From NCBI GenBank assembly GCA_937925845.1, contig CALAML010000232.1, positions 1 to 34,620 of the forward strand: a stretch of DNA of 34,620 nt, read 5' to 3'. This stretch comes from an uncultured Acidimicrobiales bacterium (GTDB lineage: Bacteria > Actinomycetota > Acidimicrobiia > Acidimicrobiales > CALAML01). The notes beneath the pieces were generated by a model. That model was not told where the DNA came from. It ran no database searches and saw only the letters and a program-made list of their open reading frames with translations. Below, piece by piece: positions 15,459-18,244 of this stretch. Numbering within the stretch: position 1 is the stretch's first letter; every line of letters begins with the position of its first letter. Both the position numbers and the translations under genes were made by a program.

Positions 15459-16982
15459 GTGTTTGATCCAGTCATAGCCAGCTTCGGCCGAGCCGACAAC
15501 CCACCACAGCTGACCGCCGCCGAAACCGACTGGCGTGAACGCAGCGATGCGGTTGAGCTAATGGCCCAGGCCGCCGAGGAGGCCCTCGCTGACGCGCTGA
15601 GCGCGGGGGCGAGCCCCAACCTCGCGGCTCAGATCGACACGGTGATCGTGCCTCGCGGAAGCTGGGGCTTCCGCAACCCCGGACGAACCGTCGCCGAGCG
15701 TCTCGGTGCTTCAGACGCCCGGACTATTTCGGTGGAGCTCGGCGTGCTGCAAACCGTTGCTTTCTCCGAGGCTCTGCAACGGCTGGCCCGAGGCCACTCG
15801 AGCTGGGTGCTGGTACTCGGTGGCGAGGCCCGGTTCCGAGGGCTGGCGGCCAAGATCGTCGGTGAGGCCGCCGACGAGGCAGCCAACGTGGACGTGGCGG
15901 GCACCGAACCCGATGAGACGATCGCGCCCCAAACCATCCCGGTCCATCGGGTTGAGATCGATCATCGCCTCGTCGACGCGGTGGATCAGTACGCCATGGT
16001 CGATAACGCCAGGCGGGTCCGGCAGGGGTTGAGCATCGAAGCTCATCGGGACGACATCGATGCCCTGGCCCACCAGATGCACTCGATCGCCAGTCACAAT
16101 CCGCGGGCCTGGTTTGGGCAGGAGCGCCCTCCTGGCTTCTTTCGCACTCCATCAACCAGCAACCGGCCGCTGGCCCTGCCCTACAACAAGTGGCACTCGA
16201 CCCAATGGAACGTGGACCAGGCCAGCGCCTTTTTGCTTGGGACCAAGGAGACGGCGCGAGCCGCCGGCATCGACCCCGCCACCCTGGTCCCCATTCTCGG
16301 GGTCGCCAACTCCGAAGCGGTGGTACCGCTGAGCGAACGCCGCGACCTGGCCGCCACGCCGGGCACTCGGGCCACAGTCGATGCGGTGCTTAATGCTGCC
16401 GGCCGGAGCCTCGACGAGGTGGCGCATCTCGATCTGTACAGCTGCTTCCCGGCCGCGGTTCGGCTCCAGCAGGAGGCGCTCGGTCTCGATCACTCGATCG
16501 AGCCAACGGTGACCGGCGGGATGGCTTTCGCTGGAGGACCGTTCAACAACGCTGCGCTTCAGGCTGCGGCTGCGGTGTGTGCGAGACTTCGCGACGATCC
16601 TGAAGGGGTTGGGGTGGTCACCGCCTTCAGCGGCATGGTGACCAAACAGGGCGCAATCGCCCTCGGCGGCGCGGCCACCACTGCGTCCCGGACCGTGTCA
16701 GAATCCTCCGGAACGCGGGTCTTCGACGTAACCGATGACGTGTTGAGCCGATCGCCCCGAACCACGGTTGTTGGCGACCACACCGGTGGAGGGGTGATCG
16801 CCACCTATACGGTGCGGTACCGCGACGGCCAACCGGACAACGCCGTGGTGCTGGCCGACCTCCCAGATGGCAGTCGGGCCTTGGCGGTCTCGACCGATCC
16901 CGGTGCAGCCGTGGCCCTTAGCGATGGCGAATGGATCGGCCGCCCGGTGGCCCTGGAGCAGGGCGGGTTTTCCCCGGCGTAA
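15459..16982 (+). CDS. Thiolase-like protein (SCP2/TLP1 type)
   Basis: This 507-residue protein has the thiolase fold of the SCP2-thiolase-like group, often annotated acetyl-CoA acetyltransferase in mycobacteria. DLYSCFPAAVRLQQ matches the HDCF/NEAF block, and GGMAFAGGPFNNAALQA the GG..G block. The nucleophile loop reads SVELGVLQTVAFSEAL with no Cys where thiolases have the acyl-accepting one, and the second Cys motif is FSGMVTKQG, also without Cys. After about residue 430 there is an extra small beta-rich domain (GGGVIATYTVRY.. AVVLADLPDGSRALA), as in M. smegmatis TLP1. It may bind acyl-CoA without classical thiolase chemistry. The start is GTG 15459, 66 bases after the OmpA-domain gene. Confidence 0.88.
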   Translation: MFDPVIASFGRADNPPQLTAAETDWRERSDAVELMAQAAEEALADALSAGASPNLAAQIDTVIVPRGSWGFRNPGRTVAERLGASDARTISVELGVLQTVAFSEALQRLARGHSSWVLVLGGEARFRGLAAKIVGEAADEAANVDVAGTEPDETIAPQTIPVHRVEIDHRLVDAVDQYAMVDNARRVRQGLSIEAHRDDIDALAHQMHSIASHNPRAWFGQERPPGFFRTPSTSNRPLALPYNKWHSTQWNVDQASAFLLGTKETARAAGIDPATLVPILGVANSEAVVPLSERRDLAATPGTRATVDAVLNAAGRSLDEVAHLDLYSCFPAAVRLQQEALGLDHSIEPTVTGGMAFAGGPFNNAALQAAAAVCARLRDDPEGVGVVTAFSGMVTKQGAIALGGAATTASRTVSESSGTRVFDVTDDVLSRSPRTTVVGDHTGGGVIATYTVRYRDGQPDNAVVLADLPDGSRALAVSTDPGAAVALSDGEWIGRPVALEQGGFSPA

Positions 16983-17037
16983 CCGAGGTCAGTTCAGACC
17001 GATCTGATCGACAGGCCGACCTGGTAGAAGGGTTCTC

Positions 17038-17207
17038 CTAGTGGTGTGTCGCTGAAATAGTGTCGGGGTCTGGGCGAGGCATCCGGGGTCGTCTGGCAAG
17101 GACGCAGATCCCCGAGTTACCTCGTCCGGTAGGGAGGGGTCGAGGACGCAGCCAGCGGCGTCGGGGCCCGCCCAGACCCCATCAGTATTTTGGCGACACA
17201 CCACTAG
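17038..17207. mobile_element. MITE-like element with 39-bp terminal inverted repeats
   Basis: A 170-bp segment is bounded by inverted arms 17038-17076 and 17169-17207 that match at 34 of 39 positions, starting with a perfect 15 bp (CTAGTGGTGTGTCGC). The ends read CTAG, or TA if the outermost bases are target, which would fit a TA or CTAG target duplication as seen with IS630- and IS5-type elements. The 92-bp interior has no ORF and contains GGACGCAG twice. It lies between convergent genes, and the last CTAG supplies the TAG stop of the glycosyltransferase. It may also act as a terminator. The transposase family is not known. Confidence 0.65.
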
Positions 17208-18244
17208 CTGCGACCAGCCACGATCTCTTCGTAGAGCTCGATGTGCTCTCGCACCATCCGTTCGGTGCAGAAGTACTCTTCGACCTGCGCCCGGCAGGTG
17301 GAGCGTGACAGCCCATCGACCTTCTCGATGTGTTCCGCCATGGCCTCGGTGCTGTCGACCACCCAGCCGCTGAGGCCATGGTCGATCAGCTCCGGCACCG
17401 AGCCTTCACCAAATGCAATGACCGGAGTGCCGCAGGCCAAGGACCGAATCATTTCGTGCCCGAACGGCTCGGGCCACCGGATCGGGTTGAGCTGAGCGCT
17501 TGCAGCACCGATGAGTTCAAGTTCCTCAGCGTCGGATAGTTCGCCGACAAACTCGATGTCCTGGTTGAGCAGAGGCCGGACCGCTTCGTCGTAGAACTCC
17601 TGCTCCCACGGCTCGTTGATCGAAGCCACCATCTTGAGCCGTACGCCAGCCATCGCAGCCGCTTGGGCGGCGCGGCGGGGTCCCTTTTCCGGGGCCATTT
17701 TTCCGGTGAACACAAAATACTCACCCCGGTCGTCTCCGCCGCCGTCGCCGATCGGGAACGCAGCAGGATCGACACCGTGGTGGATCACGCCAGCGATCGG
17801 GAGTAGGCCCGCGGTGCGGGCCTGCTCATGGGAAATGGCGATCACGGGGACCTGCGAAGAAATACTCAGGTACACATCGGAGAGTTCTTTGCTGAACGGA
17901 CCGTGGTTGGTCGTCACTACCGGCAGGTCGGGGTACCGGAAGCTGTGCATCGGCCCCAGCAGCGAGTGGTCGTGCACGATGTCGCAGCCGCAGGCCCGGA
18001 GGGTTTCGTAACCGTGGATCAGGTGCTGCATCTCGATCGTGGTCGCACCGTTGCGGTCGGTCTGGGCCGCAGGAAAGACCCAGGCCAGGGGCACATCGCA
18101 GGTCGAGTCGCCCGTGCTCCACAGCACCACATCGTGCCCTGCGGCGCGAATACCCCGGGCCAGGCGGTCGATGACCGCTTCGGGGCCACCGTCATTGGCG
18201 GGCGGCACCGGGTGCCATGGGGGTGCAATGATGCCGACGCGCAT
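17204..18244 (-). CDS. Family 4 glycosyltransferase
   Basis: This 346-residue GT-B-fold protein should transfer a sugar from a nucleotide-sugar donor. The N-terminal domain begins MRVGIIAPPWHPVPPANDGGPE, as in actinobacterial GT4 enzymes, and the C-terminal domain has VFTGKMAPEKG, the donor-site EPFGHEMIRSLACGTPVIAF and GSVPELIDHG. In the donor motif the first Glu is kept but the second Glu of E-x7-E is Arg, an unusual change. The start is ATG 18244 with AGGAGA at 18255-18260. The stop TAG lies in the right end of the MITE-like repeat, so the C-terminus may have been shaped by that insertion. The acceptor is unknown; surface glycan or glycolipid synthesis is a guess. Confidence 0.9.
   Translation of the reverse strand: MRVGIIAPPWHPVPPANDGGPEAVIDRLARGIRAAGHDVVLWSTGDSTCDVPLAWVFPAAQTDRNGATTIEMQHLIHGYETLRACGCDIVHDHSLLGPMHSFRYPDLPVVTTNHGPFSKELSDVYLSISSQVPVIAISHEQARTAGLLPIAGVIHHGVDPAAFPIGDGGGDDRGEYFVFTGKMAPEKGPRRAAQAAAMAGVRLKMVASINEPWEQEFYDEAVRPLLNQDIEFVGELSDAEELELIGAASAQLNPIRWPEPFGHEMIRSLACGTPVIAFGEGSVPELIDHGLSGWVVDSTEAMAEHIEKVDGLSRSTCRAQVEEYFCTERMVREHIELYEEIVAGRS

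Follow-up and report, generated by a model that had tools for sequence, protein, structure and literature searches.

The window, the whole stretch of 34,620 nucleotides from an uncultured Acidimicrobiales bacterium analyzed here, contains a palindromic 170-bp segment between two convergent genes (Table 1). The gene on the forward strand is presumably thiolase-like, and the one on the reverse strand encodes a glycosyltransferase. An earlier note on this DNA had described the convergent arrangement and had placed the stop codon of the glycosyltransferase gene in the tip of the segment; both are real, and such contact turns out to be frequent in the element family to which the segment belongs.

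Table 1. Features of the element and of its surroundings in the window
Feature	Position	Strand	Description
MITE proper	17041..17204	+	164 bp, GTGGTGTGTCGC...GCGACACACCAC; limits inferred from the empty sites of sister copies in other genomes
Left TA of the target-site duplication	17039..17040		From the empty sites of sister copies and the flank count over 39 copies
Right TA of the target-site duplication	17205..17206		Contributes two bases to the glycosyltransferase stop codon
Left terminal inverted repeat, as in the earlier note	17038..17076	+	Takes in the host C and TA
Right terminal inverted repeat, as in the earlier note	17169..17207	-	Takes in the host G and TA
Inner arms and apex of the full-length foldback	17080..17166	+	Limits approximate
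Glycosyltransferase gene	17204..18244	-	346 aa; name from the earlier sequence-only note; ends at the same C-terminal position as most homologues
TAG stop of the glycosyltransferase gene	17204..17206	-	TA from the target duplication, G the terminal base of the element
Convergent neighbour gene	15459..16982	+	55 bases between its stop and the left CTAG of the element

The terminal inverted repeats are 39 nt long and 87% complementary (34/39), with the outermost 15 bases pairing perfectly, just as had been claimed. When folded as RNA, the 170-nt strand reaches -118.9 kcal/mol (z = -12.9), a stability equalled by none of 200 shuffles, and the opposite strand reaches -98.5 kcal/mol (z -9.8). The segment was also said to lack an open reading frame; in a list of frames of at least 80 aa, a single mechanical frame of 82 aa crosses it, and a transposase gene is absent. 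The interior part contains the motifs CTGGC..AAGGACGC and GAGGACGC..GCCAG, which are common to several families of the element.

The element is repeated within its genome, and its tip recurs across the order

The window's own genome (G000) is an 87% complete assembly of 5.1 Mb in 328 contigs. Counting alignments of at least 55 bases, BLAST located the segment at 17 distinct places, including the one in the window: nine full or nearly full copies (170-189 bp, 82-100% identity) and eight partial copies, some of which are cut by contig ends. The other rows of the BLAST table were arm-to-arm matches or short pieces. The tip, with at most one mismatch, was found at 27 places compared to 0 for a reversed control, so that chance does not account for the repetition. 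Tips without a second end nearby were seen at C41:21342, C222:22203, C167:3183 and C295:4486; they are probably decayed or one-ended remnants, and inspection by eye recognized no transposase ORF beside them.

In the 58 other genomes of the order surveyed by BLAST, with at most 14 candidates scored per genome, only short internal matches were returned, in three genomes, and the element is therefore not conserved in position. Of 397 genomes of the order, 25 (G000 among them) carry the exact 14-base tip TAGTGGTGTGTCGC, at 108 places (summed by hand over the 397 genomes) versus 10 matches for the reversed control. The tip-rich genomes are G281 (32 places), G379 (15), G267 (6) and G347 (6). In the majority of the 25 the tip occurs one to three times, and some of these occurrences may be due to chance. 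We read the tip places as belonging to two kinds of element, MITEs of ~166 bp and insertion sequences of 1136-1156 bp. Scanning GTDB genomes with an extended tip returned 50 stretches. Many bear the title Candidatus Poriferisocius, Acidimicrobiia or simply 'bacterium'; two are titled Mycobacterium and, taking the titles at face value, a few belong to Gammaproteobacteria, Acidobacteria, Dehalococcoidia or Flavisolibacter. A scan of IMG/VR for the extended tip gave 0 matches.

Several variants were observed. Derivatives of 55-98 bp keep both tips (L122:2453-2507, L143:3500-3554, L181:4083-4177, L128:2420-2517 and L139:2412-2509). At L121:2521-2558 and L168:3825-3862, two copies of a 37-bp terminal segment lie head to tail and meet at a CTAG-like junction, an arrangement that would result if the end of one element had inserted in, or been joined to, that of another. 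In the genome G045 (L028, L031, L032, L064-L083), one of the three with short internal BLAST matches, a MITE family akin to this one shares its internal motifs and has other tips, CTAGTGGTCCCGCTCG, at 20 tip places; in this family the interior stayed while the tips changed.

Insertion at TA, preferentially within CTAG

Empty sites were sought with nine joined flanks in 17 genomes of one genus, and only the returned loci were aligned; 13 flanks had been prepared, of which L108, L144, L181 and L168 were left out. At three loci the aligned relatives have a single TA (7/7 at L148, 3/3 at L123 and 1/1 at L103, the last with an 8-base gap beside it), while the filled alleles have a TA on both sides. 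At L098, 12 of the 13 aligned relatives have TAG and one has TAA, with several bases beside it extra or different, and there is no clean empty site. The flanks of L107, L113, L122, L154 and L187 gave mostly one-sided or own matches. A tandem-repeat neighbour of L168 was considered as an empty site and dropped, as its left side was mismatched.

The flanking pattern C-TA...TA-G is found in 30 of 39 full-length elements, a count in which a few G045 rows (L028, L031 and L067) use an inner or imperfect tip. The outer bases differ in the other 9/39, as they do at the empty sites of relatives, where CTAA is found at L148 and L103 and GTAG or TTAG at L123. On account of these differences we rejected a 4-bp CTAG duplication. 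The single TA at the empty sites and the flanks of the 39 elements together indicate that TA is duplicated and CTAG preferred, which sets the limits of the element proper given in Table 1. The CTAG or TA that the earlier note had seen at both tips is thus present but belongs only partly to the element: the TA pairs are duplicated target, and the C and G outside them are host bases. The empty site that it had called for was likewise found in part, with a single TA at the three sister-copy sites in other genomes and none for the window copy, as the search for relatives of that copy returned no other genome of its family. IS630 is said to target the TA in CTAG. ISY100 both inserts at TA and duplicates it, according to the available part of its description (PMC2170065).

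Intact IS630 elements have the same ends

No IS630 transposase was detected in G000 either with Pfam DDE_3 (in the 87% complete, 328-contig assembly; 14 genomes served as the control, and 3 of them were positive) or by alignment (in the same incomplete assembly, with no positive control). As DDE_3 gave no match in the element's own genome, a helper was sought in other genomes. Insertion sequences that share the ends of the element and have a single transposase gene are complete at L135 and L085 (1136-1156 bp); at L094 one end is seen, and the transposase gene runs near the contig end. The three transposases match NCBIfam NF033545 IS630 with E values of 1.2e-69 to 1.9e-70, passing the cut-off, and also Pfam DDE_3. 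L156, one of the stretches from the GTDB scan, is an intact 1157-bp insertion sequence whose left end, CTAGTGGTGTGTCGCTGAAATAG, is exactly the first 23 bases of the window copy. Its transposase (P0004) is intact and 54% identical to that of L135, the profile scans having covered L135, L085 and L094. In the MAG Vin_3, L156 and a 55-bp derivative with the same tip (L143) occur together.

The best relatives of P0004 in plasmid records are Rhodococcus IS630 elements. One of these is ISRjo2 of Rhodococcus jostii RHA1 pRHL2 (NC_008270.1), which has a transposase 56.9% identical to P0004 over 96% of the latter and a tip, CTAGTGGTGTGTCTC, with 14 of 15 bases as in the window copy. Two further plasmid relatives start with CTAGTGGT. 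Insertion sequences with the same ends, which the earlier note had proposed to look for, are therefore found in other genomes (L085, L135, L156 and ISRjo2). According to that note, a mobile element would also be refuted by a single copy that keeps its position in distant relatives and lacks an IS with its ends; we found the contrary on all three counts, judging position from the BLAST survey of 58 other genomes.

As the element is palindromic, intergenic and multi-copy, we also considered a palindrome of the REPIN/RAYT type, for which a Y1 transposase like those of IS200/IS605 would carry out the movement, with single-stranded DNA as the substrate. REP-type elements are not known to make a target duplication, whereas here TA is duplicated at filled sites relative to empty ones; moreover, DDE-type IS630 elements have the same tips. 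We regard this explanation as extremely improbable. Repetition, IS630 ends and the empty sites of sister copies instead support the earlier proposal of a non-autonomous element moved by the transposase of another element. Judging from sequence comparison, the element is almost certainly a MITE, with transposases of the IS630 family (Tc1/mariner-type, DDE) from the ISRjo2-like group mobilising it in trans.

Sequence comparison shows many dispersed copies and tips that intact IS630 elements also have. For sister copies it shows entry at a TA, mostly one lying in CTAG, and doubling of that TA. When a gene's TAG stop is hit, TAG is remade, the first base of the element being G and its last C. An IS630 transposase would act on the tips and move the element by cut and paste. 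Insertions at gene ends would probably be retained because the protein is left unchanged, and the helper may have been lost from G000 or left unassembled there.

Some IS630 elements take their transposase stop codon from the target. In L156 and L085 this stop codon consists of the duplicated TA and the next host base, with 3' ends of ..CAT TA+A and ..CAC TA+G, respectively.

Comparison with known systems

One of the closest parallels is RUP of Streptococcus pneumoniae, which, in the available parts of the two reports, is a non-coding repeat of ~107 bp with IS630-like ends that occurs with IS630-Spn1 (PMC2229807, PMC3049150). As far as these sources go, the window MITE resembles RUP in being a short non-coding repeat with IS630-like terminal inverted repeats, inserted at TA and tightly folded with its ends paired. 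It differs from RUP in sequence and host phylum, in being GC-rich and often on TAG stops, in an interior conserved over several families, and in that no helper was found in G000. ISRjo2 and its group, likened to the window MITE by their tips, differ in being autonomous and carrying a transposase gene. IS630 of Shigella sonnei, also autonomous, is likened by target preference alone, its preference for TA in CTAG being known here from the title of Tenzen and Ohtsubo 1991. MITEPsy1 of Pseudomonas syringae is likewise a bacterial MITE with CTAG among its targets; however, in the available part of its description it is IS5-like, with a question mark in the paper, and duplicates 4 nt, whereas the window family duplicates TA (PMC3189936). 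A literature search on MITEs of Acidimicrobiia found nothing. The family is new to us; it is an IS630/RUP-type MITE with an ordinary mechanism and a neat stop-preserving insertion rule.

The interior fold across families

Eight representatives that are 49-84% identical (the 84% pair coming from one genus) have the internal motifs and the fold in common. RNAalifold was applied to 26 of the 39 full-length elements, leaving out insert-bearing and near-duplicate ones, and gave 49 pairs, 32 of them with changes on both sides. Pairing was observed in 93.8% of the cells versus 78.9% in shuffles and at most 47.9% in slid versions, with the structure fitted to the same alignment. Taking one representative per group, 91% of interior pairs form within an element versus 71% between the arms of different groups, and the relatedness of the families inflates these interior figures. 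One strand is the more stable in 8/8 representatives, in two of them by <3 kcal/mol. On the evidence of this alignment, the interior fold appears to be kept across divergent families. No Rfam covariance model matched, with E values up to 1 admitted.

The interior covariation might be mutational in origin. Quasi-palindromes mutate by template-switch correction, and switching at replication could correct imperfect palindromes so that the arms match without having any function. In addition, all families are related, so the shuffles overstate the significance of the pairing, which leaves more room for this explanation. However, G-U pairs persist at columns 48/124 (GU in 24 of 26 rows) and 51/121 (UG in 21 of 26), and template switching would tend to convert such pairs to Watson-Crick ones, although conserved GGCGTC motifs on both arms are an alternative source of them. 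We hold template switching to be quite possible, if somewhat short of an even chance.

The fold also bears on whether the element serves, or has come to serve, as a transcriptional device, for instance as a bidirectional terminator, as the earlier note had suggested, or as an mRNA 3' hairpin, the transposon ends being a relic. The great stability of the full-length foldback, the better interior pairing within elements than across families, the favoured strand and the frequent position at gene ends would all fit such a role. However, the terminator idea found no support in a scan of 16900-17350, which gave 0 terminator-like sites, the ends being without a U-tract. The short internal matches in only 3/58 genomes of the order argue that there is no conserved regulatory site, and divergent contexts occur too, in 5 of the 29 copies with both neighbours called. 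We therefore consider a transcriptional device quite unlikely as an alternative to the IS630-mobilised MITE.

A broader proposal is that the elements belong to a MITE lineage widespread in actinobacteria and designed for harmlessness, in which the CTAG target and the terminal bases regenerate TAG stops in either orientation, with an interior RNA or ssDNA hairpin selected on one strand and kept while the tips diverged to different IS630 helpers. We offer this tentatively, as a rather improbable reading. Occurring in several families of one order, these MITEs provide a system for asking if MITE interiors are selected as hairpins.

Element tips provide stop codons

Gene ends were taken from our own codon-usage gene caller. 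The stop codon of a gene is supplied by 17 of 44 copies, versus 42 of 653 CTAG sites elsewhere in loci that were fetched around elements and from which duplicates were only partly removed. None of the 44 elements is spanned by a called gene, and 15 are without a called neighbour on at least one side. Six of the nine full copies in G000 end a gene, compared to 30 of 195 CTAG sites (p = 0.0012), the count depending on gene-caller training, two trainings having given 5/9 and 6/9. The background for this comparison was 369,681 bp, with 69 sites inside genes, 96 intergenic and 26 more excluded by a loose tip filter. Against non-coding CTAG only, the excess has p = 0.011, so that part of it reflects CTAG preference and the loss of within-gene insertions. 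Among the partial or lone tips in G000, 2/10 end a gene and 8/10 do not.

Insertion at the TA of CTAG leaves TA followed by G on each side, because the element begins with G; TAG is thereby rebuilt, and a gene ending in TAG retains its stop. By eye, the C-termini of genes ending at tips look natural. For the gene at L154, two orthologues stop within ~1 codon of its end, and two further stretches are without a recognisable match. Homologues of the glycosyltransferase end within 3 residues of the end of the window protein in 18 of 24 cases (hand count), with the remaining six ending from 10 residues shorter to 24 longer. The stop contact of the glycosyltransferase gene most likely arose when the element inserted into the native TAG stop of that gene and left the protein intact. 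Stop contact is a property of the family that combines CTAG preference, removal of within-gene insertions and regeneration of the stop. Our literature search for insertion regenerating TAG stops returned no title on it, and we do not claim that it is undescribed.

An element that prefers CTAG and has G as its first base preserves stops. This accounts for the frequent stop codons from transposon tips in these genomes and provides a simple rule of harmless insertion, open to testing in any genome with IS630 elements. In annotation, a gene that ends at such a tip should be taken as probably intact rather than truncated. Worked out by hand, post hoc and on small numbers, the orientation of gene-ending tips is such that the right element end is at all eight of those in G000 (L001, L002, L003, L004, L005 and L008, and the partial L011 and L016), and the orientable ones of other genomes comprise six left and five right ends.
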